A stretch of 64,000 nt of DNA, from positions 248,001 to 312,000 of the forward strand of contig KV748192.1 of assembly GCA_001692895.1 (NCBI GenBank), read 5' to 3'. The position numbers and the translations under genes are program-made. Shown in pieces: positions 1-58,297 of this stretch; position 1 is the first letter of the stretch; the number at the start of each line of letters is the position of its first letter. Source of the stretch: Cenococcum geophilum 1.58 (taxonomy: Eukaryota; Ascomycota; Dothideomycetes; Gloniales; Gloniaceae). Below the pieces are notes generated by a model. The model saw nothing but the letters and a program-made list of their open reading frames with translations, ran no database searches and was not told where the DNA came from.

Positions 1-547
1 GGTAGAGTGAATGAACAAAGAGGCCAAGTGTTCGGAGCAGAGAAGTGTAGAAGTAGAAATACAAAGAGCCAACCCTGAGGGTCGAGGCTTAAGATAAACA
101 AAATGGCATAGCACAACAGCGTGACCACCGAACCCCCTGCAACCTTTCGGCCATCTCCACCACTAAACCACCACTTCTGGCGCCTTGACCTTGTTACTTT
201 ACCCAAGTAGGTGGGCGGTCAGCCATTATTTCTGGACCCTGGCATGTCTGACAACGCCTCAATCCTGCACCTCGCAACAGCACATCAACAATTCCCCAAC
301 ACCACCGCCACATCCAACCGGGATTATTCCTACCATTGTTCTTGGATCCATGCGACTTCCCGAACTCAATCGCTCTCCTATATACACCTCTCGCTTCGCG
401 TGCCTTGCGGTCCACCTCTATCACCCAGCGAGGAAACATTGAGCCCGTCTTACACCGCTGCTTCTGATCGCGTCGTGTTGTCAGCCATCACCATGTGGAA
501 TTAGCACTTCAACACTGTTCCATCTCGCAGATCCACCCTCGGTGCTC
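1..547. other. 5' intergenic/leader region before WAPL
   Basis: No protein I recognise is encoded here. The stretch is pyrimidine-rich with several CACC/CCACC runs, as expected for a fungal promoter and 5' leader of the gene starting at 548. Short open frames overlap on both strands without family features, so none is called. No tRNA-like or terminator structure was seen. Confidence 0.5.
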
Positions 548-4540: not shown

Positions 4541-5358
4541 ATGCCGTCGCCTCCTAAGCAGCGCAAAATTGCCATAGTCGGCAGTCGCTCTGTCGGTACT
4601 CACTCGATGCTCCAATTCCCTTTCGCATCGAGAGCTAGAATCGCTAACGGTGTGGCTTAGGCAAATCGTCCCTTACAGTACAGTTCGTTGACGGTCACTT
4701 CGTAGAAAGCTACTACCCTACTATAGAAAATACCTTCAGCAAAGTCATTAGGTACAAGACACAGGATTTTGCTACTGAAATCATTGATACTGCAGGCCAG
4801 GTAGGATACCTCTACCCTCTCCCCTAGCCAGCCCTACCGCGGCCGGATTCAGAATGGGAGCTTTGATCTGTTGTACGGAAGTTCATGGCTGAGCGGACAC
4901 TGGAGGACGAGGCGACTGACTAGTTCGCTTCATCTAAGGATGAGTACAGTATCCTGAATTCGAAGCATTTCATTGGCATTCACGGCTATATGATTGTGTA
5001 TTCGGTCGCATCCAAGCAGAGCTTTGAGATGGCGGGAATTATCAGGGATAAAATCCTCAATCATTTGGTGCGTACAACAATCCATTGCCCGCAGACGATG
5101 CTGACTGGGATCTTCAAGGGTACCGAATGGGTACCCATCGTCATCGTCGGCAACAAAAGCGATCTGAGACCGGAACAACGGCAAGTCCAACCCGAGAACG
5201 GCAAAGCTCTCGCAGAGGAGTTCAAGTGCGCATGGACGGAGGCCAGTGCGCGGTACAACGAGAACGTCTCAAAGGCCTTTGAGCTCATGATTGCCGAAGT
5301 TGAAAAATCGCAGAATCCAGGAGAGCCAACAGGCGGGGCGAAGTGTGTGGTCATGTAG
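4541..5358 (+). CDS. rhb1: Rheb-type small GTPase (TORC1 activator)
   Basis: Four exons: 4541-4595, 4661-4800, 4939-5067 and 5119-5358; product 187 aa, close to the ~184 aa of Rheb proteins. The introns (65, 138 and 51 bp) are GT-AG; intron 1 has a GCTAAC branch motif and intron 3 CTGAC. The first splice restores the P-loop: GSRSVG joins KSS, giving the Rheb-specific G1 with Arg after the first Gly-Ser. Switch I (YYPTIENTF), G3 (DTAGQ, at the exon 2 end), DEYSIL and G4 (GNKSD) follow. The last four residues, CVVM, form a CaaX box, so farnesylation and membrane attachment are expected. Rheb-GTP activates TORC1, and in fungi Rhb1 also affects arginine/lysine uptake (family knowledge). It lies in the same direction as WAPL and the synthetase, but each has its own intergenic region. 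Confidence 0.93.
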
Positions 5359-10698: not shown

Positions 10699-11602
10699 TT
10701 AGAGCTTCTCTCCGGCAGCCCTTCTAATTACATCGGCCGTCTCCTTCGGCATGCTCAAGAACGGGCTATGGCCAGCCTGACACTTCTCGATCTCAAACAA
10801 GTGGCCGGGTGTGTTCTTGAGCAGGCCCTCTTGAGCGGATCCCGGGATCGCGTTGTCGTTTTCGCACACCAGATACGTCGACGGAATATCGCGCCACGCA
10901 GCGTACGTTACGTTGGAGAAGAGACAGCGCCATGAATGGTGCGTGAGCGAGGCGGTCGTGGCCTCGGCTACTTCGGGAGTGCAGTCGTTGTAGAAGATGT
11001 GCGGGGACTGGGTGGCCCAGACTTTGTTGGTCTCGTACTGTGGGCTGTTAGATCTGTCCCTCTCGTACCACTTCAGGTGAGAAAAGTGATATCCCATGGA
11101 GAAAATTTTCAAGGAACAGTGGTACTGGTTTGCAGAAGCTAGCAGCGGGAATGAAGAGACGTGAAGGTGTGTTAGAAAGGCCACTTACATCAACCTTCAT
11201 CCACGAATGCGGCTGATCGTTCTTAACGGCCAGTAAATGCATGCCTAGCTCCAGAAAGAAGGCACAAATATACACTAGACGGACGACGCCTCCCTTCTTC
11301 CCCTCACTTTCTCTTTGCTTTTTTCCCAATCCTTTCATCGCTTCGGAGCCCACTAGCCCGCCGTAAGAATGCACCACTAGCACAACGTCCTTCCCCTGGT
11401 CAAGCACACCAAGCACTGTCTTGTGGATTAGCTCAACATCCGGGTTCCAGTTCTCGAGCGCAGGGTCGGCGCCAGTAGAGACGAGTGAGATGCCAATATA
11501 CTCGTAGCCTTCAGCCACGAGGAGGTCTGTCATGGGGGCGTAGAGGTCGGGAGAGTGCCAGGCGCCAGGGACGAGCAGGATGGTGGGTTTTGACGAAGAC
11601 AT
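10699..11602 (-). CDS. Alpha/beta hydrolase (AB_hydrolase, esterase-like)
   Basis: Two exons on the - strand: 11602-11189 and 11037-10699, with a 151-bp GT-AG intron (GTAAGTGG...CCACAG) in phase 0; product 250 aa. It begins MSSSKPTILLVPGAWHSP, the usual first beta strand and oxyanion segment of this fungal group. The nucleophile elbow is HSYGG (Ser79), the acid is probably Asp199 in CENDNAIP, and the catalytic His is His228 in QAGHSPF. The segment FYNDCTPEVAEA is shared by a large fungal set of short alpha/beta hydrolases annotated as esterase or salicylate/pyrethroid-hydrolase-like. The natural substrate is unknown, and no signal peptide is visible, so it is probably cytosolic. An unspliced reading of exon 1 runs to a stop inside the intron and would lose the Asp and His, which supports splicing. 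Nothing near it suggests a metabolic cluster. Confidence 0.87.
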
Positions 11603-12407
11603 GATTTTTGAAGATTGATTTGATCTTCAATCGCTAAGGTGTGATACAAAGCTACGGCTTGGGCTGTTCAGTGCGAGCTGAGAGTGCTCCTCCTTATACC
11701 TTTCTGGGCAGTGTCGGATGGCGGTGTGGGAAGTGCTAGTTGAAACGGAAAGCGGCAGTTGAGGTGATAAGCTTCTTGTAGTTGTGGAGCCAGTCAAGCT
11801 GTCCCGCCGAGCTGTTTATAGTTTTGAAAATGACAAGGTAAATAATAGTACGCGCATCGTGGAAGCTCAGTCATGATTCTGGCGTTTAGCCCTCATGGGA
11901 CATATCTACCATAGTAGGCAATCAAGAAAGCCGCAACATGGGTAAATCGGACAGGCGATATTGATCTGGGAGCCAAATGAGCGGTAGCGGAAGGGCAGAG
12001 TGATTGATGGTGGTTCAATCTCTCGAACGGTGACAGCTCGCACCCCTGCAGTGCAGGGATAGCAAATTAAGTTAACACGCGTGATACGGTCCCTTGCACG
12101 GCATCTTCCGTTTCGTTCGCCGCGAAGTGCTGAGACAGGTAATGACTGCGTTAAGAGGAAAATGCTATCAAAGTAAGATGCTGATGGCAGAGAGGTCCGC
12201 CTTGAGATGGCTTGATGCATAAGAGCACAAGAGTGCTGAGTTATGAGGACAAGTGGACTTGGACCTGGCGTCAGCATGTCCGGATCCGAGGCTCGGGAGT
12301 TATAGGTAAACTCTTGATCAACAGCATATTGAATAGCAACTAAATTTAGCAACTGAAAAGTTGGATGTGGTGCACTAAGTCTATTTCAATCTTACCAATG
12401 AACACAA
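11603..12407. other. Divergent/3' intergenic region
   Basis: The promoter side of the hydrolase (minus strand), then sequence up to the 3' end of the dynamin relic. A 148-codon frame on the - strand (11906-12352) has no domain or bias pointing to a gene and is not called. Confidence 0.4.
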
Positions 12408-14860
12408 TTACGAAGTCCCGTCAAAGCCGTCAGTGAAGAAGTCTAACCCCCCAAGCTCTCCAAAGTCACATAACACTCCCAAAGGCTCTCTATTCTTTAC
12501 TTTGTCACATTCTCTTCGCCGTCCTTCAAGGTGTGGATCACGCGTGACGCGGTTGAATATCTCTGGTCTTCTAAACCAATCGATGCGGAACTCTTTATCT
12601 AGGTCGTCGAGCAGATGGCGCCCCACCACCTGGATAATGACATTGTTAATGTATCGATCGCGCGTAATCTATCGTGTTTTTATTAGCAAACACTCTTCCA
12701 TTGAGGTTTAAAGGGGGTATAAGGAAAGGGCTGGATGAACATTGTAATAAATTAACATCTCCTCCATCATCTGGGCAGCAGCTTCTTGTCGTTTACCCTC
12801 TGGTTCTGTCAGATAATCTGTATTCTTGGTGGCGTAGGACGTGCACTGGTCACGTGCACTGGTCACGTGTATTGTAAATAGGGGCCCTAGGTCCATCACC
12901 GATGAAGACACCATCAAGATCATCAATCAATCAACCCATTTCAATCAATGAATAGCTCTATATGAACTATCTGACAGGTTCTCCAAAACCAATAACATTG
13001 GCTGTTTGTTCCGGGGAGACTGGAGGGAAGGAGCCTTTTTCCTCTGCATCTTTGATCCTTTTTGCTAGCCTGGTTGCAAACTTTTCCGAAGACCGCGCTA
13101 GGAAGCAAATGTTTTCCGTGACATATCTCCTCTCCGGTCTCTCTCTCGCGCTGCCAGTTCCTCCTCTGCTCGACGGAAACGCCTCTGCAGCCGTTTTTCC
13201 GTTACATGTCTTCGGAAGCTTGAGGCAATGTCTGGAAACTCGCGACCAAGCTTCTTGTTGATCACCAGTTTCACAAATTCGCGACAGTGATCATTCGATC
13301 TCTTCAAATACTCGGCTGATAAGTTCTTCTAGGGGTTAGAGTAATGGTGAAACAACTGTGTGGTCCTGTATGGATCGAAATTGCCCGGAAGCTCCGTTAC
13401 TACTGTCTCTAATAAGAAACGGTGGAACTTGTCGACCCATGCAAATCCCTCCGGAGGTGTGTCATCTGGTGCCACAGCATATTCTTCATTGTGTCCTTTG
13501 GTCTTCATTTGGTCGTGGAATACAGAATTCTCATCTCGAATCCTTCCGCGCAAGTAACGGCCTGTTTTGTTATCTGCACCTATGCCGAAAAAATCTGGAT
13601 CAGTCCGATAGGTTCTGAGCACAGCCTGGCTTGTGGTTTTGGGTATGCTTCCGAATCTCTCTGAAAGTAAATCCATCATTTGCTCGGGATCTAAAAGCCC
13701 TAGGCCGAGTTGTTCTAATCGTGCATCGTATACCTCCGACCTTGCCTGGATGTCACCGCGGAGAGTACCTATTTGATCTTGAGTGTGATTGTAGAGGAGA
13801 GTTTTTAGGCGAGGAATCAAATGCCTAACGTCCCACTCATTAGTTTCATAGAGAGTGTGCCGTCGGTTCGGCTTGCCCGCATTTTCACCGCTGTCGGCTG
13901 CCCATGTCTCTTTAGTAAAGAAAGCTTCTCCTGTCACGTTCCGTGGAGGTTGTTCCGTCCTTCGTCTTTTGCCCACTGTGATTCACCAAGACATGGCACC
14001 CTTTCCCAAACTTGAAGAAAGCACCATTGGTTTGCCGGGCAAGCCTAAGCCATTCAGTTTCGTTAGGTAAACCGGCTTCAATTCTGTCAGGCTTTGTTAT
14101 GATGCCAAATGTTCTCTTTCCTTCGGGATTGACAACTCGAGCTTTCTCTAAGATCCCGTTGTCTTGAACGTTGATGTCGGCATTAACAACTGGCAAAATA
14201 ATCGATCGCTCATCTTTGATATAACGATCCGTGATAGCTTCCACAATGTGAATATCGTCCTCTTCACCTTGGTTGACCGCAATTAATCCTGGGAGATCAA
14301 CAATTGTTAGATGGGGTGATCTAGGACCTCGGATTTCGACGCAAGGAATGTCGCCAGCGAATTTAACACGATTTTCTGACCCGTCCTCGGCAAGCCCCAT
14401 TGCGCGGGAAGCATCTTGAACAATTTTTCTCAAATTCAAATTTGCGAGGGCCATAAGTAGACTAGAATAGCGCTAGCACCGCTCTTTCTTCGGATCTGCG
14501 GATATACTGGCTGTTATCGATGTTTTAGAGAGACTCCGATCAGGAATTAGAAGAATCCTAGAGAAGGTCAGAAACAGGTAGGGCTAACATGCTGGAAGCT
14601 TGATTCCGGACACGTACTCTGTCACAAAACGGGTGCATGTTGTGTCACTTCTTGGGAAAGGGACTCTTGTGATAGCCTCTAGGACCGAGCTCTTCCCCGA
14701 AGATTGTTTCCCGCAGACAACAAGTTGGGGGAGACTGAGTTGCCGATCAAGGTCGTGATCTCGAATCGCATCTACAACATCGAGAAACTGATTTTCTTTG
14801 TCATCGCGAAGCGACTAATTCCCAAGCACACCATCCTACTCTTGCTGTTCTGTGTCTTTT
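12408..14860 (-). pseudogene. Mx-like dynamin GTPase, degenerate
   Basis: Read on the - strand, the order is dynamin-like. G1 CGKQSSGKSSVLEAI lies near 14690 and TTCTRF (switch I Thr) near 14640. A 60-bp intron follows (14617-14558), then DLPG (G3), TKPD (G4), the stalk (ETWAADS ... PPEGFAWVDKFHRFLLETV ... LFHHYSNP) and a C-terminal GED-like helix ending YYN | ITRDRYINNVIIQVVGRHLL across an intron at 12740-12669; stop at 12408. Damage: an in-frame TAG at 14473-14475 between G2 and G3; a TAG at 13329-13331 exactly where the family has Trp (SNP-W-KNLS); a frame change near 13925-13940 (TSTERD to GEAFF); and probably another near 13130. The Trp stop is a CpA-to-TpA change on the + strand, as RIP makes. 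Fungal Mx-like dynamins of this type are often multicopy and lie near heterokaryon-incompatibility-rich regions; the function is unclear. The 5' end is uncertain. A very unusual intron set could rescue part of it, but I found none that would. Confidence 0.78.
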
Positions 14861-20331: not shown

Positions 20332-20756
20332 TATTACGGACGCTTTAAGTACGATATTACGACTACTTAGAGAGGAGTTAGAGGAAGCTAGTTAGTTAAT
20401 ACAAGCACGGTCTAGGATAGAACCCGTAGAACTATATGACAAGGAATAGTAAGTAGAGTCACGTAATATAATCTGTATAATCTATATAATCTATAAGATC
20501 TATTATAAAGCGAGCAGAGTAGACAGAGCAGATAGAGCAATAACTTTCTTAGAAGTACGTTTGTATATTTAAGGACCCTTAGTCCCTACCTAGATAGTTC
20601 CTTCCTTATAGTAATTCTTAGAATATAATTAGAGTTAATCTATTAGGNAACCACTCCACCAGTTATTATTACGTTGTTGACTTTTATACTTGCATTTCCT
20701 ATATACCTAGCCTATTAACAAGCCTATCGTAGTTCTTGCTACAAGGTTCCGTTACA
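20332..20756 (+). repeat. 5' LTR of element A
   Basis: 425 bp, TG...CA-type ends (TRTTACGGACG ... GGTTCCGTTACA). The family is shared with elements B and C. Confidence 0.88.
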
Positions 20757-23700: not shown

Positions 23701-26700
23701 TTAGCTAAAGAGTAAGCTAAGTACACTAGAATTAAGCAGCTAATAGTTAGGAAAAGTAGAGGCCTATAGGACTAAAGGGAGCCAGTAGTAGAGCCTTAGA
23801 CCCTTAAAGGAATTTAAGGACAATACCTAAATTTACGAGTTAATTAGTAAGATTAGCAGTTTGAAGCGCTAATAGATAGTAAAGTAATATAAAACCATAT
23901 CTTACTAGTAGTAGTTAAGAGAATAGGACTACCTTATAGATAAAAGGAGCAACCTTACCTATTAGTTACGATTTTAGGAGATCTAATAACCTATAGAGGA
24001 GGGATTATCAATCTTAAAATAGGACCTATTTGGATAACTATTAAAGGGAGATAAATCAAAATGTCTTTTAATATCCTACCATTGGGACAGGACAAGGCAG
24101 TATTAGGCATGCCTTAGTTATAGGAATATAATTTAAGAATCGATTGGATTATAGGTTAGGTCAATATTAGAGATACTTAACGCTATAAGATGCGACAATA
24201 AGCCAAGTTGGTATAGTACTAAGTAGGAGCAACTTATAAAGAAATAGAAAAAGGACTAAGCTATATACTAAAGAGATACTATAAGTATGGTAAGAAACTA
24301 TAGTTACCGGAAAGTAAAAAGCTGTTAGAATATATAGCATAGGATTATAAGATAGAGTTAGAACTAGAAATAAGTCTAAAGTTCTTTCTAATCTATAAGC
24401 TTACTAAAGAAGAAGGTAGAGCGTTAAAAGAGTTTATTTAGGAAAATCTATAAAAGGGATATATTAGACCATCGCAGTCATTAGCGGGTTATCCAGTACT
24501 ATTCGTACTAAAGAAGAATGGTAAACTAAGGCTATATATTAACTATAGATAGTTAAACAGCATTACTAGGAAGGATAGGTATTCTTTACCCTTAATTAGC
24601 GAAATCTAAGATAGGATAGGTAATGCGCAAATCTTCACGAAGATAGATCTAAGATGGGTATACTATTAGATTAGGATTAAGAAAGGCAACAAATAGAAGG
24701 CAGCCTTTAGGTTAAAGAAAGGACTATATAAACTATTAGTTATACAATTCGGGCTTATAAACGCACTAGTAACATTCCAGAAGTGTATTAATAATATATT
24801 AGGAGAACACTTAGATGAATTTATTATAGCATATCTTAACAATATTATTATCTACTTAATAACTAAGGAAGAATATAGGGAACACGTTAAATAGGTCTTA
24901 AAAAGACTATAAGAAGAATAGATACTAGTAGCAATTAAGAAATACAAGTTCTTTACTAGGAAGACTAATTTCGTTAGATTTATTATTAAACTAAGCTAAC
25001 TTAGTATAGATCTAAAGAAGATTAAGGCTATAGTAAATTAGTAAGAACTAGAGAACGTTATACAGTTAAGATCATTCTTAGGGTTTTGCAATTACTGTAG
25101 AAGGTTTATAGCGCAGTAGTTAAAGAACATTAAGCCATTTACGTGGTTAATAAAGAAAGAAGAACTATAGGCATAGGGAGAGGAGCAAAGAGAACTCTTT
25201 AAGAAAGTTAAAGAGTTGTTTACCTAGGAGCCAGTTCTTAAGATCTATTAACTAAGACTAGAGACGGTTGTAGAAATAGATGCATTAGACTATATACTAG
25301 GGGCGTACTTTATATAAAGATATTAAAATGGATAGTACCCAGTAGTATACTATAGTCGGAAGATAACACCACCGGAGTTAAACTATAATATCTATAACAA
25401 GGAGTTGTTAGGTATAGTTACAGCATTAAAGGAATAGAGAGCATTCTTATAAGGTATAGAGAAACTATTTATAGTTAAGATAGATTATAAAAACCTAATA
25501 GGATTTCTAATAATAAAGGAACTTAACTAAAGATAGGTTAGATGGGCAGAGATACTTATAGAATACTATTTTAAGATTTAGTATACTAAAGGTACAGATA
25601 ATACGCGGGCAGATACTCTAAGCCGCAAAGCTAAACTATAAAATAAGGAAAAGCCATTAGGGGCTTTATTATAAAAAGATATAGACAGATTAATTAGGTA
25701 CAATTATCCGAAAATTATAGTAACTTAAGAAGATAATAAACTAGAGAAAGTCTACGAGATACTAGAAAGCTTTTAGGCATAAAGAATTCTAAAAATATAG
25801 CTAGAAGATCTATAGACGGATATATACAAAAATTAAGAAGTAAAGTATATCCTAAGAAGTATAGCAGAGTAGTTCATAGAAGATTTCTATAAGGGACTAA
25901 CTTAAGGACATAATAGAGCTATGGGCTTAGTATTAAGACTTTAGAAGGAGTATATTATTAACAGAATCTAAAGGATAGCCAGAAAGGTTATAAAGGAATG
26001 TTTAGATTACTAAAGGAATAAACTAACGAGGCATAAGCTATATAGAGGGCTATAACCTATTAAAATACTAAAGAGACTATGGGAGGTTATATTATAGGAC
26101 TTTATTATTAAGTTGCTAAAATTAAAAGATCCTATTACTGGATAAGATTATAACATAATCTTAGTAATAGTAAATAAGCTTACGAAGTGGGGATACTTTA
26201 TAGCATATATAGAAGAAATCTTAGCAGAAGATATTGCTAGAATCTACGTTAAAGAAGTATTTATAAGACATAGAGTACTAAGTAAAATTATATTAGATAG
26301 AGATCTAAGATTTGTAATAGCATTCTAGGAAGTGTTCTTAGCGGAGTAAGGAGTTTAAGTAGTAACTTCCACCGTATATTATCCGCAGATAGACGGTTAA
26401 ATAGAAAGGTTAAATTAGACGCTAGAGCAGTATCTAAGGCATTATATTAATTATATATAGAATAATTAGGTATTACTGTTACTAGTTATATAGTTTACAT
26501 ATAATATAATACCTTAAAAAGGAATAGGCACATTACTATTTAAGGCAAATTATGGATATAAGCTAAGAATATTATTATTACTATAGTAAGTAAAGAAAAT
26601 GAGTAGTACAGCCAAAGAAAGAATAAAGACGTTAATAAATCTTTATGCAGACCTTATAGAATTAGTAAAGAAAGTATAAGAGAGAATAAAAAAGTATTAT

Positions 26701-26900: not shown

Positions 26901-26968
26901 NGNNATNCTAGAGCNAGTATANNGGAATATTAAGCNANTAGTNTANNANGCAGACANNTATAGAGGNN
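26901..26968. other. Cluster of ambiguous bases in element A
   Basis: About 15 N over ~70 bp in the region after the integrase. Similar clusters lie at ~34910-34972 and ~36674-36764 (element C) and ~46719-46803 (DIRS-like RT), with a single N at 20648. They probably reflect unresolved differences between collapsed repeat copies, not biology. Confidence 0.7.
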
Positions 26969-28880: not shown

Positions 28881-29306
28881 TATAACGGAACCTTATAGTA
28901 GTAACTACAATAGGTTCTATCAATAGGCTAGGTGTATAGGAAATGCAAAAATAGTAGTTAATAACGTAATAATAACTAGTGGAGTAGTTGCCTAATAGAT
29001 TAACTCTAATTATATTCTAAGAATTACTATAAGGAAGGAACTATCTAGGTAGGGACTAAGGGTCCTTAAATACACAACCGTACTCCTATAAAATCCTTCT
29101 TATATATAATATACGTGTTATATATAAGGTACATAAGTTCCTCTCGTTCCTTTTGTTTAATATATAGCATGTTATATAACCTTAGCTACTATTCCTCATT
29201 ATATAGTTCTATAGGTTTTATCTTAGACCGTGCTTATATTAACCAACTAGCTTCTTTTAACTCTTCTCTAAGTAGTTATAATATTGTACTTAAAGCGTCC
29301 GTAACA
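28881..29306 (-). repeat. Left (3') LTR of element B
   Basis: About 426 bp, the reverse complement of the element A LTR family (TATAACGGAACC ... GCGTCCGTAACA). Confidence 0.87.
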
Positions 29307-31844: not shown

Positions 31845-32263
31845 TGTAACGGAGCCTTGTAGTAGGAACTACGGTAAACTTATTAATGGGCTAGGTATAT
31901 AGGTATCGAAGAAATCAATAACATAATAATAACTGGTGGAGTGGTTGCCTAATAGATTAACTCTAATTGTATTCTAAGAATCACTACAAGAAAGGAACTA
32001 TCTAGGTAGGGACTAAGGGTCCTTAAATATACAACCGTACTCCTATAAAATCCTTCTTATACGTAATATACATATTATATATAAGGTATATAAGTTCCTT
32101 TTATTCCTCGCGTTTAATATATAGCACATTATATAACCTTAGCTACTATTCCTCGTTATATAGTTTTATAGGTTCTATCTTAGACCGTGCTTATATTAAC
32201 TAACTAGCTTCTTCTAACTCTTCTCTAAGTAGTTATAATATTGTACTTAAAGCGTTCATAATA
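31845..32263 (-). repeat. Left (3') LTR of element C
   Basis: 419 bp. Starts TGTAACGG and ends at the sequence equivalent to GCGTCCGTAACA. Confidence 0.85.
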
Positions 32264-34627: not shown

Positions 34628-37600
34628 ATTATAGATCTATTCTTTTTATATTACTGCGATTTTTAGATAATTATATCTAATTAATCTAATTATATCTAAT
34701 TAATCTAATTATATCTTTTCGCAATAAAGCCCCTAATGGCTTTTTATTATTCTATAGTTTAGTCTTTCTACTTAGAGTATCTGCTTATATATTCTCTATA
34801 CCCTTAGTATACTAAATCTTAAAATAGTATTCCGTAAGTATCTCCGCCTATCTAACCTATCTATAATTAAGTTCTTTTGTTATTAGGAACCCCGTTAGGT
34901 TCTTATAATNNGTCTTAANTATAAATAGTTTCTNTATACCTTATAAGAATANTCTCTATTNCNTTANTNCTATAACTATACCTAATAACTCCTTATTATA
35001 GATGTTATAGTTTAGTTCTAGTAGTGTTATCTTCCGACTATAGTATGCTACTAGGTGCTATCTATCTTTATATTTTTATAGAAAGCACGCTCCTAGTATA
35101 TAGTTTAATACATCCGTTTTAACTACTATCTTTAACTGTAGTTAATAGATTTTAAGAACTAGCTCCTAAGTAAATAACTATTTAATTCTCTTAAACAGTT
35201 CCTTTTATTCCTCTCCCCATGCCTATAGTTCTTCCTTCTTTATTAATCTTATAAGTGGCTTAATATCTTTTAACTATTAAGCTATAAACCTTTTATAGTA
35301 GTTATAGAACCCTAGAAATAACCTTAACTATATTATATTTTCTAGTTCTTGCTAATTTACTATAGCCTTAATCTTCTTTAGATCTATACTAAGTTGGCCT
35401 AGTTTAATAATAAATCCGACAAAATCCGTCTTCTTAGTAAAAAACTTATATTTCTTAATTACTACTAGCATTTACTTTTCCTATAGTCTCTTTAAGACCT
35501 ATTTAATATATTCTCCATATTCTTTCTTACTTATTAAGTAGATAATAATATTATTAAGATATACTATAATAAATTCATCTAAGTGTTCTCTTAATATATT
35601 GTTAATACGCTTCTAAAACATTACTAGTGCGTTTATAAGCCCGAATTATATAACTAGTAGTTTATATAGTTTTTCCTTTAACCTAAAGGCTGCCTTTTAT
35701 TTATTGCCTTCCTTAATCCTAATCTAATAGTACGCCTATCTTAGATCTATCTTTATAAAGATTTACGCATTACCGATCCTATCTTAGATTTTACTAATTA
35801 AGGGTAAAGGATACCTATCCTTTTTAGTAATGCTGTTTAACTGTCTATAGTTAATATATAGTCTAAGTTTTTTTATTCTTCTTTAGTACAAATAGTACTA
35901 GATATCCTACTAATAACTGCAATAGTCTAATATATCCCTTTTAAAGATTTTCCCGGATAAACTCCTTAAGTGCCTATAACTCTTTTTCTGTTAACTTATA
36001 GGTTAGATAGAACCTTAAACTTATTTCTGGTTCTAGCTCTATCTTATAGTCCTATACTATATAATCTAATAGCTTTTTACTTTCTAGTAACTATAGTTTC
36101 TTGCTATACTTATAGTATCTCTTTAGTATATAACTTAAGCCTTACTTAGTCTCTTTATATATCGCTCCAACTTAGTACTATACTAACTTAGTTTATTATC
36201 GCATCTTATATTATTATATATCTCTAATATTAACTTAACCTATAACTTAATTAATCTTTAGATTATATTCCTGTAACTAAGGCATTCCTAATACTGCCTT
36301 ATTATTCCCTAATAGTAATATATTAAAAGACATCTTAACTTATCTCCCTTTAATAGTTATCTAAATTAGTCCTGTTTTAAGATTAATAATGCCTTCTTTA
36401 TAGGCTATTAGATCTCCTAAAATTGTTACTAATAGATAAGGGTGCTCCTTTTACCTATATAGTAGTCCTATCCTTTTAACTGCTACTAGTAAGATATAGT
36501 TTCTCGTTGCTCTACTATCTACTAATGCTTTAAACTGCTAATCTTACCATTTAATTCTTAGATTTAGGTATTATTTTTTAAATTTCTTTAAGAGTTTAAG
36601 GCTCTACTACTGGCTCCCTCTAGTCCTATAGGCCTCTACTTTTCCCAACTATTAGCTGCTTAATCCTATTATANTTAGCTTANTCTTTAGCNAATNNCTA
36701 GTTNNNTTTTTATCTTTAATATNCTATAGANAGGTNTTNTCTAGATATTNCTACTATTNTNNTNTATTTAAGCATTCTTCCGTAAGGAATCTTCCTAGTT
36801 AAAGTATTAAATCTCCTTCCTTTTAGACTTTTGCTGGATGCTAGCTGTATATATATTTAGCATTTCTATACTATTATTTATCTATTATCTAGTATATCCT
36901 TATAGGGTATTTCTAGTTCTTTTCCTTTGGATTTTTGTGCATCTTGTATATATTGTCTATATATGCAATCCATGATAGCGTGTAGTATGCTAGGTGCTTT
37001 AGGTTAACTCTTAACTTATCTTTATCTTTAAGTTTAAACCTTTATCGCACTAATCTAAACATTATAACTTTATTTATAGGTACTAAGATGCGTCTCTTAC
37101 TTCTCTAGTCCTCTAACCGTTCCTCTAGATTCTTTAATATTATAATTAAGGCTCCCTTAATATAATTTATCGCTTTTTCTGTAATTGGGTAGTCTTAGAT
37201 AACTTTTTCGTTTAACTATATATAGAAATCTTCCTACTTATTATTGTGTCGTTATCTATACCACTTCTAGTATAGCTGCTGGAGTATATACGGCTTGTCC
37301 GTAAGAAAGTATCTTCTTATTACTGCGTTATAATAGCCCTTTATGTGTCGTTCTTTAAACCTAGTAGAAATCCCTAGATTCTCTTTATTTTCCAGTTTAG
37401 TAAGTTACTTAGCTCTTAGTATGCCTTTTTTTAGCCTATTAGTGATTCTTTATACTAGTGCTCTGTCCTTTATATGTCCTAATATGCTAGATCTCTTATC
37501 TAGTTTCTTTTCTTGCTATGAGGTAATTCTTGCTCTGAATTCCTCTATGGTTTCTTTCCTTTTGCGTCTTATAAGTGGATCCTTAAAGTCTTCTTACTTT

Positions 37601-39665: not shown

Positions 39666-40084
39666 TATAACGGAGCCTTATAGTAAGAACTACGGTAAAC
39701 TCGTTAATGGGCTAGGTATATAGGTATTAAAGAAGTTAATAACGTAATAATAACTAGTGGAGTGGTCGCCTAATAGATTAACTCTAATTGTATTCTGAGA
39801 ATTACTATAAGGAAGAAACTATCTAGGTAGAGACTAAGGGTCCTTAAATACACAACCGTACTCCTATAAAATCCTTCTTATACGTAATATACGTGTTATA
39901 CGTAAGGTACGTAAGTTCCTTTTATTCCTCGCGTTTAATACGTAGCACATTATATAACCTTGGCTACTATTCCTTGTCATATAGTTCTATAGGTTCTATC
40001 CTAGACCGTGCTTGTATTAACTAACTAGCTTCTTTCGACTCTTCTTTAAGTAGTTATAACATTGTACTTAAAGCGTTTGTAATA
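39666..40084 (-). repeat. Right (5') LTR of element C
   Basis: 419 bp, followed by the ATATG duplication and then RNase H sequence of element B. Confidence 0.85.
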
Positions 40085-43000
40085 ATATGCTACTAGGTGC
40101 TATCTATTTTAATATTTTTATATAAAGCACGCCCCTAGTATATAGTCTAATGTATCTATTTTTATAACCGTTTCTAGTCCTAGTTAATAGATTTTAAAAA
40201 CTAGCTCCTAGGTGAATAATTCTTTAACCTTCTTAAATAGCTCTTATTGTTCCTTTCCCCATATTTATAGTTCTTCTTTCTTTATTAATCGCGTAAATGG
40301 TTTAATATCCTTTAACCATTACGCTATAAACCTTCTATAGTAATTGTAAAACCCTAAAAACAATCTTAATTGCGTAACGTTCTCCAGTTCTTGCCAATTT
40401 ATTATAGCCTTAATCTTCTTTAAATCTATACTAAGTTGGCCTAGTTTAATAATAAATCTAACAAAATCGGTCTTCCTGGTAAAGAACTTATATTTCTTAA
40501 TTACTACTAGCATCTATTCTTCTTATAGTCTCTTTAAGACCTATTTAACGTGTTCCCCGTATTCTTCCTTAGTTATTAAGTAAATAATAATGTTATTAAG
40601 GTATACTATAACAAATTTATCTAAGTATTCTCCTAATATATTATTAATACGCTTTTAGAATATTGCTAGTGCGTTTATAAGCCCAAATTGTATAACTAAT
40701 AGTTTATATAGTTCTTCCTTTGACCTAAAGGCTGCCTTCTATTTATCGCCTTCCTTAATCCTAATTTAATAGTACGCCTATCTTAGATCTATCTTTATAA
40801 AGATTTGCGCATTGCCTATCCTGTCTTAGATTTCGCTAATTAAGGGTAAAGAATACCTATCCTTCTAAGTGATGCTATTTAACTATCTATAGTTAATATA
40901 TAGCCTTAGTTTGCTATTCTTTTTTAGTATAAATAGTACTAGATAACTTACTAATAACTGCGATGGTCTAATATATCCCTTTTATAGGTTTTCTTAAATA
41001 AACTCTTTTAATGCTCTACCTTTTTCTTCGGTAAGCTTATAGATTGGAAAGAACCTTAGACTTATTTCTGGTTCCAATTCTATTTTATAGTCCCATGCTG
41101 TATATTCTAATAGCTTTTTACTTTCTAGTAATTATAGTTTCTTACTATACTTATAGTATTTCTTTAGTATATAACTTAAGCCTTACTTAGTTTTTTTATA
41201 TATCGCTCCGACCTAGTACTATACTAACTTAGCTTATTATCGCATTTTGTGGCGTTAAGTATCCCTAATATTAACCTAACTAGTAATCCAATTAATCCTT
41301 AGATTGTATTCCTGTAACTAAGGTATCCTTAATACTGCCTTATCCCTTCCTAATGGTAAGATATTAAAAGATATCTTAATTTGTTTTCCCTTAATGGTTA
41401 TCTAAATAGGTCCTATTTTAAGGTTAATAATACCTCCTCTATAGGCTATTAGATCTCCTAAAATTGTCACTAATAGGTAAGAACGTTCCTTTTATTTATA
41501 TGGTAACCCTATTTTTTTTAACTACTACTAGTAAGATATAGTTCCTTATTACTCCACTATCTATTAATGCCTTAAACTATTAATCTTACCATTTAACTTA
41601 TAAATTTAGGTATTATCCTTAAATTCCTTTAAGGGTCTAAGGCTCTACTATTGGCTCCCTTTGGTCCTATAGGCCTCTACTTTTCCCAACTATTAACTGC
41701 TTAATCCTATCGCGTTTAGCTTATACCTAGTTTATTTCTTATCTTTAATATACTATAGACACGTATTTTCTAGGCATTCCTACTACTATTATCCGTCTAA
41801 GCATTCTTCCATAAAAAATCTTCCTAGTTAAAGTGTTAAGTTTCTTTCCTCTTAAACCTCTACTGGATGCTATCTATATATATATTTAGCATTCCTGTAC
41901 TATTATTTATCTATTATCTAGTATATCCTTATAGGGTATTTCCAATTCTTTTCCTTTAGATTTTTATATATTTTATATATATTATCTATATATACAATCT
42001 ATAATAGCGTATAGTGTACTAGGTGCTTTAGATTAACTCTTAACTTATCTTTATCCTTAAGTTTAAACCTTTATTATACTAATCTAAACGTTATAACTTT
42101 ATTTATAGGTACTAAGATGCGTCTTTTGCTTCTCCAGTCCTCTAATTATTCCTTTAGATCCTTTAACGTTATAATTAAGGCTCCTTTAATATAAGTTATA
42201 GCCTTTTCTATAATTAGGTGGTCTTAGATAACTTTTTCATCTAACTATATATAAAAATCTTCCTACTTATTATTATATTGCTGTCTATACCACTTTTAGT
42301 ACAGCTGTTAAAGTATATATAGCTTATCCGTAAGGAAGTATCTTCTTATTACTATATTGTAACAGCCCTTTATATGTCGTTCTTTAAACCTAGTAGGGAT
42401 TCCTAAATCCTCTTCGTCTTCTAGTTCGGTAAGCCACTTAGCTTTTAGTATACCTATTCTTAGCCTATTAGTGATTCTTTATACTAGTACTCTGTCCTTT
42501 ATACGTCCTAATACGCTAAATCTCTTATTTAGTTTCTATTCTTACTATATAATAATTCTTTACCTAAACTCTTCTATGGTTTCTTTTAGTTTGCGTCTTA
42601 TAGATTAATCCTTAAAGTCTTCTTACTTCTTAATCTTAATATCAACTTTTTAATCTTTAGGCCGAACACTGTGTTCCCCTAGTAAGTCTTCTAGGTCTAT
42701 ATACCTGTCTTTTAATCTAATTACTATTTGCGCTATAGATTCTCTAATCTATAAGGAAGCTCCTTACCTCTTACTTATAGGTGTTCTGATTTATACTCTA
42801 AATTCTTAATCCCTTAGATTCTTTAATCCCGAACTTACTTCTAACTTAAGCTTAGCTTCAGCCTTAGTCTAACTAGGCTTGCTTAGTATTCTTATCTTAT
42901 CTTAAGAGTCTTAAATCTCACTCATCTTATCTTAAGAGTCTTATGCCTTTAGGAAACTTCGTCCTAAGCTTATTTATATATTACTAAACTAAGCTATTAC

Positions 43001-44674: not shown

Positions 44675-45000
44675 TATAACGGAACCTTATAATAGTAACT
44701 ATAATAGGTTCTATTAATGGGCTAAGTGTATAGGAAATGTAAAGATAGTAGTTAACAATGTAATAATAACTAGTAGAGTGGTTACCTAATAGATTAACTC
44801 TAATTATATTCTAAGAATTACTATAAGGAAGGAACTATCTAGGTAGGGACTAAGGGTCCTTAAATATACAACTATACTCTTATAAAATCCTTCTTATATA
44901 TAATATACGTATTATATATAAGGTACGTAAGTTCCTCTTATTCCTCTCATTTAATACATAGCACGTTATGTGACCTTGGCTACCATTCCTCGTTATATAG
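44675..45000 (-). repeat. Right (5') LTR of element B, first part
   Basis: The first ~326 bp of the LTR. It stops abruptly at GTTATATAG, where the DIRS-like element starts, and the remaining ~102 bp is at 49741-49842. Confidence 0.82.
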
Positions 45001-45103
45001 ACATGTCTATATGGCTAAGCAAGCACTACAGCAGCACCCCTGCATCTCAGTAACACTAACATTATTAACATTTATAAAATTGAGCCTTGCTTGCTTGCTT
45101 TCC
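45001..45103 (+). repeat. DIRS-like repeat A1
   Basis: 103 bp at the 5' end, matching A2 at 49414-49516 in direct orientation (CAGCACCCCTG, TTGCTTGCTTTCC). The match stops sharply after TTTCC. Confidence 0.8.
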
Positions 45104-48100
45104 ATATTAGTTTTATTTAAGAGCCAATGCCTTATTTACTTAATTTCTAATAATTAATTATTGCTGTTAATGACTTAACGACCTATACGCTCATCTAAAC
45201 CTTCGCGAATTGTTTATAAAAACCTTAAAAACTCGACTAACGACGACACACTCGACGAGCTAAACTCCTCAAAGGTTACCTACCAGTCTCCCTTACCTTC
45301 CCCTACACCTTTAGGCGATACGCCGGCGTTACAGTCTCCATCCTCTATAATAGCGCCTCTCTCCACGGCTTAACGCGAGACTTTAGCCGCTAAAAAAGCT
45401 AAAGAATGGCTTTAGTAACTACACAAGGAGGACCTAAGGATTAGAAGAGCTTAGGTAAAGGAAGTTAAGGACTAGGCAACTGACCGGAAAATAAGACTCC
45501 TTTAGGAACAGAAGGACCGTACTAAAATGCTACACGTCTAAAAAGAATAGGAAGATTAGGTAACTAAACTCTATATATTAAGCCTTGCTACGGTAATAGT
45601 AAGATTAGCTACGGTAGTATTATCCTTAACCCTAATTAATAAACTGGGTAAGTTGCTCCTATTTATAGCTAATATCCTAAATATCTTCCTCCCTGGCGTC
45701 CCAAATAAAGAGATACTTAAGGTATTTTAAGGTACTTTCTTACCTAATAACCTCTCTTGCCTCTGGATACACCAGCTTTGGTCTAAGCCTTAGAATAATA
45801 TCCTTATTATTAACAGCGTCCTTTTTATAAGACCGAAAGAAGGGATGATAAAGGACTACCCGTCCGTTAAAGTGTGGGTAGAGGGCTTCCTTAACTATAT
45901 AATAATTTTAATTGTTATATATAAGAATCTTTTAGTAGATCTTATTCCCTAAATGCTTACCTTCTATAATTAAGTTATCTGGCTATCTACCACCTACTAA
46001 ATTGCTCCCTTAATAACTATAGCCTTAGAGTACTACTCTATGGTTATTTAAAAGAACTAGTTAGAGCTAGCTAACTAGAAGATTTCTAGTAACTTCCTAG
46101 ATATCTATTATAATCCCAATACTTATAAATCCGTATCTATCTTAAAACGCGCGTAAGTAAGCACTAATATCTTAAGGACCTATTATAGCTTTAATAAAGG
46201 GAAGTGTGACCTAGGCAAGGATTGCAAGTTCCTATATACCTACAGTAAGTGTAGTAGCTTGTATACTATAAGGAATTATAAGTAGTAATTACTAGAGGAA
46301 AGTGTTAATAAGGAAAAGAAAGAGAAGGAAGAGGATTTTATTAAGCTATACCTATACTTCGCTAAAACTATACTCTACCCTTATAGTACGGGTAGGCTGA
46401 ATACTATACTATTATTTCTAGTCTTTCTACCCTCCTCTCCTCTATAGGACTCTCCCTCCCCCTTAATTATTTAAGCGTGGGGGCGTTATCTATCCCTATA
46501 CCCCGGCAACCTCTAATGCAATATTATTAGTATCTTAAAGTTTAGATACTAGATTGGGGTAGACCTAGAAATTAAGCTTCTCTTCTAAAAGAACTAAGCC
46601 TTAATAGCCGTAAATACGGTCCTAATCTTAGAGAAGATTAGCGCCAATTTAGATATAGGTAGGATTATAATGGCAACGTCTCCTGTTATATCCTTACCGC
46701 TAGGTTTAGTACCTAAAGNGGATNGGGNATAGCGCNGTATTTANAACTTATCCTTACTATNTAGCNNATCTNTTAANAACTTAATCCCTATAGNATTNGC
46801 NANACTATAATATTTAATAGTTAATTAGGTTCTCTAACACGTTATATATATAGGCCATAGTTATATAATTATTAAGAGGGATATTAAGAACGCCTTTTAG
46901 AATATTCTACTTTCTATTAAAGCTTAACGCCTTATAGGGTTCTCCTAAAAGGGTATAGTATATTTTAAACGTTGCCTCTTATTCGGCCTTTAAACTACAC
47001 CCTTTTTATTTAATCTTTTTGCAAAGGGATTCTACTAGATACTTATTTAACATATCCCAAACGCCGCCTTAGAGCACTATCTAGATAACTTTATCTTTAT
47101 ACTCTCTAACGCTTCTATTCTCCCTTAATTGCTTAGTATATATAACTAATTAAGCGACGAATTAGGCATCCTATAAAACGAATTAAAGAATATTAAAGGC
47201 ACTATAGCTGAAGTTCTAGGTTATATTATAGATACTCTAAAGTCTAAGCTATGTCTTTCTCCTTTAAAACAGGCCACTATAATTAAGGAGATTAATAAAG
47301 CGTTAAGTAGTAGATCCCTAACGCTGGTTTAGAGTTAAAAACTGGCTAGTAGACTTACTTAGAGCGCCCAGGTAATTAGGCTTAGGCGTCTATATAACTA
47401 CTCTATCTAGGAGTTTATCTCCACTTTTATAAAGGCAGGTAGTTATCCTTACTAACGGCTAACAGCTAAACTTCGCTAAGACTTGTTATAGTAGAGGGAT
47501 ACTCTTACCCTTTTAAATAGTATCCTCTTCTTTAATAATACGGATTAAAAATAATTCTATCTCTTCTTAGATATATTTAGGATTCTTAGTTATAGGGCCT
47601 TTTTCTTTTTTAATAATTCTTAAGGGATAATATGGCCGCCCTATTCGGTATCTTTACCCTAAGACGATTCTTTAAGCTACTACCCTAATATAGAATACCG
47701 CCTTACCCTAATTAATAAGCGGGAGGTTTAAGCGATTACGACCTTATTCTAGCTCTAGGCAACGCGGTAGAAGTATAGCTTAGTTTATATCTATATGGAT
47801 AATATAGTAGTACTCTTAGGATTCTAGAATATGGTAGTAAAAGGACTAGGTAATTACCCGCTCCATAAGATCCTCTAACTAGCCGCAGCCTATAATATTA
47901 CGCTCTATACGGAGTAGGTTTCCTCTATAGAAAACGGGCTAGCTAATACTCTATCTCGTTTTAATCGCGATAGGGTGTTATTACTATACCCGCATTAGGA
48001 TACTTCTGATTTACTATTACTATATGCTTCTTTATTATATTTAATCTAACGCCGAAATAGGAGATTTAGTCCCTTTTAAAGACCCCCTACCTAATTTCTA

Positions 48101-49264
48101 GATTAAGGTAAAAGCCCCCTTAGAATGCTTCGGCTAACTATTATAGCATAGCCTTTTTAATAGAATAAGAGATTTATACCATCCCGTAATTAAGAGTTAG
48201 GAGGGCTACTGCGACCTTTATAGAGCGGTAAAGTACCTAGCGCCTCTCTACTACCTAGGAGAATGGATTACCTAACAGATCTTTAGTAATACTAGTTTAG
48301 GAATAAGCTATATTAAGCCTACTATAGTTAAAGCCTATATCTCCATAATTTAATCCCACCATATTAACGCTAATTATAACACCTCCGTCTTTAATAATTC
48401 TATTATTAAAAGGATCCTAAACGGTGTAATATCTATAAATCCCTCTACTACGGCTAAAAAATTGCTAATTACTAAAGACATCCTTGCCTAATTAGTTACC
48501 CTAAATGCCTAATCCGTTAAGGATCTTAACTTTAACGCCGCCGTTACTACGGCCTTTATGGGATTCCTTTATCTAGGCAAGATTACCTATACTAAAGCTT
48601 AGAAAGATAGCTACGCCTTTTCTGCTATAAAATATACCAGAAACAATATAACGCTAGTAGAGGACTATATAATATTATGTCTAAAGCGTAGTAAAACAGA
48701 CGTTAATTATTAAGGAGTTTTAATTATAATTGCCGCTTTAGGGCAATCTAAATGCGCAGTTTAAGCTATAAAACACCTATTTAAAAATAACCCCTAACCC
48801 GGAAACGCCCCTCTCTTTTACTTTAAGAGATCGGCCTTTATAAGCTACGCGGTTAGGAATAAGCTAAAGTATAGAGTTGCCGCTCTTGGCCTTTACTCTA
48901 AGCTCTATAACGGACACTTATTTTAAAAAGGTGCTACTTAATACGCTTAAGATAACGGTTTTATAGACGGCCAAATATAGCAACTAGGCTGGTGGTCCTC
49001 ATAAGCGTTCTAGCTTTACTATTTATTATCCCTAAAAAACCTATTCCGGTTAAGTGTAAACTTTTAACATAGAATGCTAATACCGTTCTTATTATTACTC
49101 GCCCTAAATACAATAGGCGAAGGTATTTAGGTATAACGGCGTGTAGGAGTACCTATTTTAGCACTCTAATATATTAACTTAAATCTCTCCTTTCCCCCCC
49201 TTTTTTATTTTTTATTTTTTCTTCCCCCTACTCTACCTTGTATGGTATAGGCGCTACGCTTCTA

Positions 49265-49413
49265 GGTCTATAGGTATTACGTTTAGTTAAGGCAGGGTAA
49301 TCCCCTATAAATAGCCTTACGAATATACCCATTCTTAATTAATGCCTTTAAGCCCGTACCCACTAATTAGATTAATTAATCCTCTTCTCTATAAGTGTAT
49401 AAATAATAGATAG
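49265..49413 (+). repeat. DIRS-like repeat B1
   Basis: About 149 bp, matching B2 (49594-49740) in direct orientation from GGTCTATAGG to AATAATAGAT. It directly abuts A2. Confidence 0.8.
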
Positions 49414-49516
49414 ATATATCTATGTAGCTAAGCGAGCACTATAGCAGCACCCCTGTATCTTAGTAACATTAATATTATCAACATTTACAAAATTGAGCCT
49501 TACTTGCTTGCTTTCC
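49414..49516 (+). repeat. DIRS-like repeat A2
   Basis: The internal copy of A1, joined directly after B1. B1-A2 is the junction expected of a circular intermediate in this group. Confidence 0.8.
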
Positions 49517-49593
49517 CTCCCACCCATACCTTTTTCTTTAGTTATATATTTTGGGCTTTATAAATAGATACTGCAGCGATATGCTTGCGCACG

Positions 49594-49740
49594 GGTCTAT
49601 AGGCATTACGTTTAGTTAAGGCAGGGCAATCTCCTATAAATGGCCTTGCGAATATACCCATTCTTAATTAATGCCTTTAAGCCCGTACCCACCAATTAGA
49701 TTAATTAATCCTCTTCTCCGCAAGCGTGTAAATAATAGAT
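49594..49740 (+). repeat. DIRS-like repeat B2 (3' terminus)
   Basis: Terminal copy of B. Element B's LTR sequence resumes immediately after it (GGTTCCACGG). Confidence 0.8.
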
Positions 49741-50132: not shown

Positions 50133-50495
50133 CAGCCATGTGCATGACCAGCTTCCACCCCCCTCTAGCAAATATTTATTTCGCTTCGGTAGGCTACGCG
50201 GGCTCGCTCAATCGCCACCAACTGCACATAGTAATTGTAGCGAACGCCTATGTCAAAACTTGCCTGACGTACGCTTTCTCTCTCTTCCCCTTTCCACCCA
50301 CGCCTCTAAAACGCGAATATAACGCCGTCTTTGCAGAGAGGTCGATGAAATTTGGCAATATCGTACGGGTGGAAACCTTGCGATATTTGACAAAGATCAC
50401 GACGTTGCAGAGGAAGGCCGATCGCAAACAGAGGCGTTCGCTACGATTGCCATGTACAGCTGGTGGCAATCAGGCGAAATTGAATGACATGGCTG
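50133..50495. mobile_element. Long-TIR MITE, copy 1 (TA-flanked)
   Basis: Ends CAGCCATGT...ACATGGCTG with TA on both sides (50131-50132, 50496-50497). A long internal inverted repeat (GCCACCAACTGCACATAG ... and GAGGCGTTCGCTACGATTG) extends far inward. The reverse complement of its centre matches the centre of copy 2 (VAATATCG.. / TTTCCACCC words near 50345-50380 and 56530-56560). Non-coding: the 166-codon open frame over it is inside the repeat. Tc1/mariner-type by TA duplication. Confidence 0.68.
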
Positions 50496-50577
50496 TACAG
50501 CTTTGTTCACGACCCCCCTCCAGGCGAGCTGCGATTTTTGTACGCCATTTAATTTCGCTTGATCGCCACCAACTGTA

Positions 50578-50718
50578 CAAGGGGGTAACACAAATTGCTC
50601 AGACGCCCCCTGCTAGTATAATACACAAAATAACCTAGCCCTGCTATTACTTAGGGCTCGCTTATTTCCTCTCCATACTAGCAGGGGGGGCGTCTGAGGC
50701 ATTAATGTTACCCCCTTA
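50578..50718. mobile_element. 141-bp foldback TA-MITE
   Basis: Inverted termini of about 40 bp, starting CAAGGGGGTAACA at the left and (complement) TAAGGGGGTAACA at the right, followed inward by CAGACGCCCCC and CTGCTAGTAT. TA on both sides (50576-50577, 50719-50720). It is inserted in the left TIR of MITE copy 2 and is non-coding. Confidence 0.78.
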
Positions 50719-50729
50719 TACATAGCAAT

Positions 50730-57583: not shown

Positions 57584-58141
57584 CTACAAGGGGCGGACGA
57601 TGATATACGGTCCCGCGACTGCGCCATTCCACTTAATCTCGACCACATCGTTGACCCCGACCAACTCGCCCGCCATCCTGCGACCCGCCGGGCAATCAAA
57701 CACGCCGTTAGAGCCATACCCATCAACCGCTGTCGCATACCCGCCATTGACTGCCTGGGCCCTTCCTAAATACTGGTCCCTTAGATTACCACTCGGCCAG
57801 GTCGTTGTCGGCCCCGCGGCAGGCGCCAAGCTCGTAAAGACGTCGAACTGGCCCGAGCCCGTGACCGTGGCACTGCTGTCGAGGGAGAAGGCCAGCTCGC
57901 ACTTGTGGCCCGCGGTCCAGGCCGGGAAGTCGAAGGTCACGAGCGTGGTAACGTCGGACTCGCGGCCGGACTTAAAAATGCGGCCCCATGTAGTGGCGTA
58001 GTTGATCGCGCCAGTCCACACGCTGTACTGCGAGAGTGTGGTTGGGTGGATGGATTGGGCACTGTTATAGGGCTCGATGGGGGCGGCCAGGGTAGTAGCG
58101 AGGAGGGTGGTGAGGGTTGCGAGGGTGGTGGTGAACTTCAT
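57584..58141 (-). CDS. Secreted But2-domain protein
   Basis: One uninterrupted exon, 185 aa, ATG at 58141-58139. Residues 1-20 (MKFTTTLATLTTLLATTLAA) form a classic signal peptide with AXA-like cleavage before PIEP. The rest resembles the C-terminal But2 domain of fungal cell-surface or secreted proteins (family named after S. pombe Uba3-binding protein But2). It is a beta-sandwich with a conserved Cys early (HKCELAFSLD), VTGSGQFDVF, a Trp-containing turn (TTTWPSGN), CPAGRRMAGELVGV and a final GPYIIV strand. Two Cys remain in the mature part and may pair. In fungi these are small extracellular proteins of unknown function, sometimes counted among candidate effectors. Base composition is normal and GC-rich, with no RIP, although it is close to the nest. 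Confidence 0.82.
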   Translation of the reverse strand: MKFTTTLATLTTLLATTLAAPIEPYNSAQSIHPTTLSQYSVWTGAINYATTWGRIFKSGRESDVTTLVTFDFPAWTAGHKCELAFSLDSSATVTGSGQFDVFTSLAPAAGPTTTWPSGNLRDQYLGRAQAVNGGYATAVDGYGSNGVFDCPAGRRMAGELVGVNDVVEIKWNGAVAGPYIIVRPL

Positions 58142-58297
58142 TTTGGCTTAGAAGAGGAGATGGAATTAAAGTAGCGATTGATAGAAGATTTTGAGCGAAG
58201 GTTGAAATAAAAGTTTGACTGGAAAGCTGTCTTTGCTGCTTGAAGATGAGATCTGAATGCTGATGATGAGAACCATTCTGCCTCCATTCTCTCGACC

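Follow-up and report, generated by a model that had tools for sequence, protein, structure and literature searches.

What kind of mobile element lies at 45-50 kb of this Cenococcum geophilum 1.58 sequence, and how did it enter the chromosome? We analysed a 64,000-nucleotide stretch of contig KV748192.1 (positions 248,001 to 312,000; hereafter the window). An initial annotation had placed a DIRS-like retrotransposon at 45001-49740, with split direct repeats in the order A1 ... B1-A2 ... B2 inside a long terminal repeat (LTR). Our data indicate that the element is very probably a dead copy of a Ngaro-type tyrosine-recombinase (YR) retrotransposon, altered by repeat-induced point mutation (RIP), whose cycle and precise integration were as proposed below. 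A retrotransposon with split direct repeats is indeed present. The DIRS label needs amending where it means DIRS1, whose repeats are inverted: the evidence points to Ngaro instead. There is no LTR.

In the window copy, the order of parts is A1-[gag-like, reverse transcriptase (RT), RNase H, tyrosine recombinase]-B1A2-(77 bp)-B2. A1 and A2 are 87% identical across 110 nt, B1 and B2 are 93% identical across 147 nt, and B1 and A2 share a few overlapping bases. The remaining pairs in the same repeat table are shorter (direct, up to 37 nt; inverted, up to 50 nt, the latter outside the element). No inverted pair longer than 30 nt was found within the element, where all long pairs are direct. An LTR-type architecture, in which one LTR recurs at either end and a few target bases are duplicated, was not observed. 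The element sits where it was first drawn, with slightly different limits: using 37 left and 40 right ends of copies, and because base 49740 belongs to the target, we place the element proper at 44998-49739.

The element is a member of a multi-copy family in its 177.19-Mb genome, in which the window belongs to contig C17. A transition-tolerant pattern for the B1-A2 junction gave 91 exact genome matches and a pattern for the linker between A2 and B2 gave 70, compared to 0 for the reversed control of each. Together, the 91 junctions and the 16 linker matches without an adjoining junction match mark 107 places; this number is a lower bound, in which one copy on contig C82 accounts for two places and solo units for two. 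Looser initial searches with the two ends had returned 239 and 229 candidates, 40 of each being scored. We sampled the window copy and 40 further long copies. Both A repeats fell inside the fetched stretch, in the split-repeat layout, in 37 of these 41 copies, both ends were usable in 36, and the repeat order was identical in the copies with both ends. The repeats are therefore common to other genomic copies and are not the unrelated local duplications that the initial annotation had named as a way for its proposal to fail. The 4.74-kb unit recurs at many differing sites: among 49 flank pairs, no two resembled each other on both sides.

The loci L093, L097, L100, and L106 represent a second subfamily that is distinguished by 3-nt insertions or deletions in A and B, with 84.5-87% likeness in a 3' interior piece and 91% in the single 5' piece read. 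The B insertion is found in B1 and B2 alike in 3/3 copies (L093, L097, and L100). The A deletion is found in A2 in 3/3 copies and in A1 of the copy on contig C65 (L106); A1 was not detected at its expected place in the remaining two. The split-repeat model demands that A1 = A2 and B1 = B2 at insertion (as described in PMC6681497), and changes common to both members of a repeat pair are as this model predicts. Solo A-B units were found at 2 of 12 places inspected (L101 and L103). The 3' end of L049 (contig C82: 244900-246000) reads B1 A2 B2 A3 plus a cut-short B3, and so contains one A-B unit more than usual, attached head to tail through a B-A junction. The solo and extra units are compatible with recombination events at B-A junctions or between the repeats. 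It should also be noted that two element linkers lie about 580 bp apart on opposite strands of contig C47 (771452, + strand; 772032, - strand), with their 3' ends facing.

To look at insertion, 50 bases of each flank were joined for the 36 copies with both ends and compared with 334 kb of sequence. For 9 of the 36 copies, the joined flanks aligned without gaps across the junction to an empty paralogous site. Mismatched joins gave gap-free spanning in only 16 of 1,260 cases, and shifting the junction by -3, -2, -1, +1, +2, or +3 bases gave 2, 4, 0, 0, 3, and 2 copies, respectively, compared to 9 unshifted. The paralog of L018 is a tandem repeat within its own flank. For the window copy, empty sites occur in the window itself at 20385-20451, 29156-29253, 32113-32210, and 39934-40031, with a fifth in L024. 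The four sites in the window are copies of another repeat, each an uninterrupted version of the site that the window element entered; a second repeat family (23810-23907, 36487-36584, and 41529-41626) provides empty versions of the L015 site, the one at 36487 with one gap. Genome searches added an empty site for L056, for which three paralogs were viewed, and one for L035 by equal match lengths only, for a total of 10 copies plus L035. For L033 and L022, which have single-copy flanks, the genome search for empty sites returned just the flanks themselves. The ends of the flanks match each other no more than expected by chance. Since the joined flanks match empty sites without gaps, insertion is conservative, with neither duplication nor deletion, in agreement with the absence of a target duplication noted in the initial annotation. 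Insertion without target-site duplication is a general trait of YR retrotransposons.

The insertions share a strong preference at the last target base. Position -1 was A in 49 of 50 scored insertions (36/36 in the discovery set and 13/14 hold-out copies in which A1 was found). The hold-out comprised 20 requested copies, of which 13 were scored by script, 6 lacked A1 where it was expected, and one (L056) was added by hand; the script had missed L056 because its pattern required A at -1, a requirement that cost the discovery set no left end (37/37). L040 was omitted from the discovery set because its 3' end did not turn up where expected. Left ends were seen singly in five additional cases, and these (L040, L050, L101, L103, and L106) also have A. 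The hold-out supported T at -4 (11/13), A at -3 (9/13), and, weakly, T at +0 (8/13; p-value 0.03). Preferences for C at +3 and G at +11, significant in the 36 discovery copies, failed in the hold-out (2/13 and 1/13) and were dropped. The base 3' of the element was T in 30, C in 13, and A in 6 of 49 copies; in L100 it was G.

The crossover point is the same throughout. RIP changes apart, all 50 left ends read as target up to -1 and then element sequence TGGACATG, and all 50 right ends read as element sequence AATAGA and then target. The circle junction that these ends imply, AATAGA/TGGACATG, is the sequence present at B1-A2, consistent with the earlier suggestion that B1-A2 preserves the junction of a circular intermediate. 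Exchange occurred at the left edge of the 8-bp spacer between the ATAGA and TCTAT arms in 50/50 cases, and the spacer was found in none of 49 right flanks. These arms and spacer are a candidate recombinase site, read from the sequence. In L056, C occupies -1 in both the copy and the three viewed empty paralogs, which places the exchange exactly between -1 and +0.

This single-edge crossover is the unusual part of the element. The sites of tyrosine recombinases are typically inverted repeats 6-8 bp apart (as described in PMC3212892). If a heteroduplex were resolved at random, roughly every second crossover should fall at the far edge, and none of the 50 insertions shows a heteroduplex stretch. 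Because the typical spacing with random resolution would give both edges, we raise, tentatively and as something rather doubtful, the idea that strand exchange at a single constant position, without visible overlap, may reflect integration of a single-stranded circle, or exchange of one strand followed by replication. Integron cassettes are inserted by a one-strand exchange that replication finishes. Zero overlap by itself is no proof of single-strand integration. The pattern could equally stem from a substrate that is single-stranded, from an overlap of very few bases, or from repair on one side, and sequence cannot yet choose among these.

Which enzymes could have carried out these steps? 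The Pfam RVT_1 profile matched the RT in 12/12 copies tested (best E-value 4.1e-10), namely the 12 of 21 copies aligning gap-free from the first base of the stretch. The window copy itself scored 28.4 bits (E-value 1.6e-6) against a cut-off of 29.6, and an alternative read-through scored 34.1 bits. 3' of the RT, frame 2 contains TDN and ENxLAxxLSRF, which we take to be RNase H motifs, and upstream of the RT it contains a Cys/His motif that is presumably a gag-like zinc finger, each residue of which is preserved in some of 37 copies. Near the 3' end, as the initial annotation had proposed, there is a putative tyrosine recombinase recognised by motif. Across the 37 copies, the active-site residues are preserved as follows: Lys in 37, His in 22, the Arg of HxxR in 2, Trp in 25, and Tyr in 37. 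The ordered motif occurs at one place when all six frames are read, compared to 0 of 18,000 column-permuted frames, for a pattern chosen post hoc. The catalytic motifs surviving across different copies, together with the manner of insertion, suggest the recombinase assignment.

Several observations weigh against the overall explanation. The position of the first catalytic Arg is Tyr in 35/37 copies and Cys in 2/37. The profile search for a tyrosine recombinase that the initial annotation had called for was negative: Pfam, PHROGs, NCBIfam, and a PDB sequence profile matched 0 of 17 read-through copies (17 of 21, three being omitted for gaps or non-coverage and L027 for a match two bases short). 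Weak matches of unrelated profiles in one or two recombinase copies were discarded. Pfam PF00589 found nothing across the whole genome, while 14 control genomes gave matches. Alignment of the recombinase against Escherichia coli XerD alone with hhalign found nothing, as did the control alignment of the RT-RNase H region, and AlphaFold2 on the window recombinase sequence alone gave an unusable model (pLDDT, the predicted local distance difference test, of 36). For RNase H there was no Pfam match and for the zinc finger no library match, so that both identifications come from motifs. No Pfam methyltransferase match was found in the six frames of the window copy, in a scan that also missed the recombinase. 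The target preference has its exceptions as well: C at -1 in L056, and G at the -1 place in the empty paralog of L019. Searches with the RT-RNase H region were negative against PDB profiles, and a scan of viral_contigs with its alignment found no relative.

Between about 18 and 56 kb, most of the window, element included, is depleted in CpA/TpG and rich in TpA, which is the signature of RIP. In the window copy, A1 and A2 differ at 13 of 103 compared positions and B1 and B2 at 11 of 145; every difference is a transition, with 11 and 9, respectively, in CpA/TpG context. Across 19 copies, with L014 set aside, repeat-pair differences are likewise solely transitions, mostly at CpA/TpG; 32 apparent A1/A2 transversions all came from L014, which was out of register through an insertion or deletion. 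In the interiors of 37 copies, only 29 of 4,161 columns contain a transversion, 28 of these in a single copy. Almost no transversions are shared, so the copies derive from one young, nearly uniform source. The RT-RNase H and recombinase frames are broken by RIP-type C-to-T mutation in the copies read. Of 65 codons with a stop in some copy, 58 are preserved as sense codons in one or more of the 37 copies, indicating that most stops arose after insertion. The spectrum of C/T differences is wider than strict CpA RIP, with 267 columns before A, 188 before T, and 128 before G (37 interiors; + strand columns in which each base is represented by two or more copies). As part of the overall explanation that we strongly favour, the main subfamily spread recently and in a burst, its source being nearly uniform, after which RIP broke the frames of the copies read. 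Scattered clusters of N (26901-26968, 34910-34969, 36674-36764, and 46719-46803) look like masking and not like sequencing gaps; the last sits just upstream of the RT core.

We propose the following cycle for a live element. The transcript would be copied by the element's own RT and RNase H, and, following the published split-repeat model, the internal B1-A2 block would supply the sequences absent from the transcript ends. Each round would thereby restore A1 = A2 and B1 = B2 and yield a circle with one B-A junction. The recombinase would then recombine this junction with the chromosome, so that the circle opens between AATAGA and TGGACATG; the frame-3 protein is the presumed enzyme and the circle the presumed substrate. 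Insertion would occur nearly always after A, with zero bases gained or lost, a precision that is seen directly at the empty sites. Later, a burst from the nearly uniform source would have spread the main subfamily and RIP would have broken its coding frames.

The architecture points to a Ngaro-type element and not to a DIRS1-type element, as the direct split repeats follow the recombinase on its 3' side and a methyltransferase was not found, the latter being a weak test. DIRS1-like elements are described as having inverted repeats and a methyltransferase, PAT elements as having split repeats and a methyltransferase, and Ngaro elements as having split repeats 3' of the recombinase without a methyltransferase (PMC4157794, PMC3783388). 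The A1-[open reading frames]-B1A2B2 layout and RT domain of Ngaro are both present, and the inverted terminal repeats with internal complementary region of DIRS1-like elements are not. Split direct repeats are common to PAT and Ngaro, so a PAT-type element whose methyltransferase was lost or went unrecognised could look much the same. A Pat1-derived lineage without a methyltransferase has been reported in C. briggsae (PMC4157794), and the silence of Pfam on the methyltransferase is weak evidence because Pfam missed the recombinase too. However, at most 596 nt separate the last RNase H motif (47962) from the first recombinase box (48558), room that must also accommodate the N-terminal part of the recombinase, and the internal repeats occupy the position that they have in Ngaro, 3' of the recombinase. 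Room and position both fall short of a tree; given them, we regard a PAT-type element as unlikely.

Rearranged LTRs that mimic split repeats A and B would also be compatible with the RT, since RVT_1-type RTs occur in LTR elements, and the solo A-linker-B units resemble solo LTRs. This explanation is contradicted by the empty sites, and is further opposed by the constant order in copies with both ends, the lack of target duplication, and the circle-type junction at 91 places. A DDE integrase, which by the initial annotation would have refuted its assignment, was not seen in the six-frame Pfam scan of the window copy, although that scan missed the recombinase as well. We consider an LTR retrotransposon very improbable. 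A last alternative is that unrelated repeats came to surround an RT fragment by chance or by segmental duplication. The region is rich in repeats and AT, in favour of this, but recurrence of the whole unit between differing flanks already contradicts that account, to which we attach almost no weight.

As a Ngaro-type element, the family can be compared with those already described. Ngaro elements from Basidiomycota, and a truncated one from Neosartorya fischeri, have the RT and A-pol-B-A-B repeats found here together with the RNase H and YR presumed here, and they lack a methyltransferase, for which no match was found here (PMC3783388). By that description, N. fischeri, whose element falls in Ngaro clade 3, has one truncated copy without terminal repeats, whereas here there are many long copies with repeats in place. 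The Ngaro of Cafeteria burkhardae has the same A1-[open reading frames]-B1A2B2 layout, a gag-like reading frame, and solo AB repeats (PMC8547959); its host is a protist, and RIP decay, a target motif, and the crossover point are described for the present element. DIRS1-like elements are likewise YR retrotransposons without target duplication, and they have a circular intermediate of the kind presumed here, but their terminal repeats are described as inverted, they carry a methyltransferase, and 3 bp at the junction are common with the target (PMC3266345), in contrast to the direct split repeats and one preferred base found here. PAT and VIPER elements have the same split direct repeats, A1...B1A2B2, but PAT elements carry a methyltransferase and VIPER is known from kinetoplastids (PMC4157794, PMC6681497).

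Records from ascomycetes are few. A 2011 survey of 75 ascomycetes reported no well-conserved DIRS1-like copy (PMC3266345), and a 2013 survey of 177 fungal genomes reported just one Ngaro from an ascomycete, a truncated copy (PMC3783388). DIRS was kept as a plotted category when fungal genomes were compared in 2015 (PMC4352252). The Ngaro label appears as an annotation-table entry for Zymoseptoria tritici (RYN, one family, 23 kb; PMC4502367) and Hortaea werneckii ('LTR Ngaro', 12 hits per strain; PMC7601665). The main text of the C. geophilum genome paper contains neither 'DIRS' nor 'Ngaro' (PMC5023957). In a full-text search, a multi-copy Ngaro family in an ascomycete was not announced in any retrieved title or abstract opening, Repbase, subscription papers, and supplements being outside its scope. 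While Ngaro entries exist for a few ascomycetes, this family is likely undescribed.

The features of the window copy are collected in Table 1. Just downstream, at 50204-50722, two inverted-repeat pairs (50 nt, 80%; 37 nt, 86%) lie in GC-richer, less RIP-like DNA and are perhaps a small non-autonomous DNA transposon. Ordinary genes were called by Pfam on both sides of the repeat block: WAPL-like (443-3454), Ras-like (4924-5358), class II tRNA synthetase (6642-7142), alpha/beta hydrolase (11048-11626), dynamin-like (13912-14472), and But2-like (57584-58147).

Table 1. Coordinates of the element and its parts in the window copy.
Feature	Position	Strand	Basis and remarks
Whole element	44998..49739	+	4,742 bp; flanked by target bases 44997 (A) and 49740 (T); end comparison and gap-free empty sites
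Repeat A1	44994..45103	+	First 4 nt are target DNA
Gag-like zinc-finger motif (presumed)	46190..46264	+	Frame 2; C-x5-C-x3-H-x-C-x2-C-x3-H
Reverse transcriptase core	46853..47188	+	Frame 2, stops present; Pfam RVT_1
RNase H, C-terminal part (presumed)	47783..47962	+	Frame 2; TDN and ENxLAxxLSRF motifs, by eye
Tyrosine recombinase (putative)	48123..49128	+	Frame 3, stops present; N-terminal limit approximate; catalytic motifs
Recombinase motif SKTD	48690..48701	+	
Recombinase motif HxxR	48915..48926	+	
Recombinase motif LGxW	48984..48995	+	
Recombinase motif Tyr	49017..49019	+	
Repeat B1	49265..49411	+	Repeat comparison
B1-A2 junction	49402..49431	+	Same as expected circle junction; 91 exact genome matches, reversed control 0
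Candidate recombinase site	49406..49423	+	5-bp inverted arms ATAGA / TCTAT, 8-bp spacer; putative role
Repeat A2	49407..49516	+	Repeat comparison
Linker A2-B2	49517..49593	+	77 nt; linker pattern, 70 genome matches, reversed control 0
Repeat B2	49594..49740	+	Last base (49740) is target

YR retrotransposons are poorly understood, and older surveys found them absent or nearly absent from ascomycetes. The element described here is very probably a new representative of the Ngaro type, which is rare in this group. As a young and uniform family with 107 marked places, 50 resolved insertions, and empty paralogs for about ten of them, it provides a base-level picture of integration. With such a family, sequence data can by themselves be used to test whether the circle enters the chromosome as double- or single-stranded DNA.

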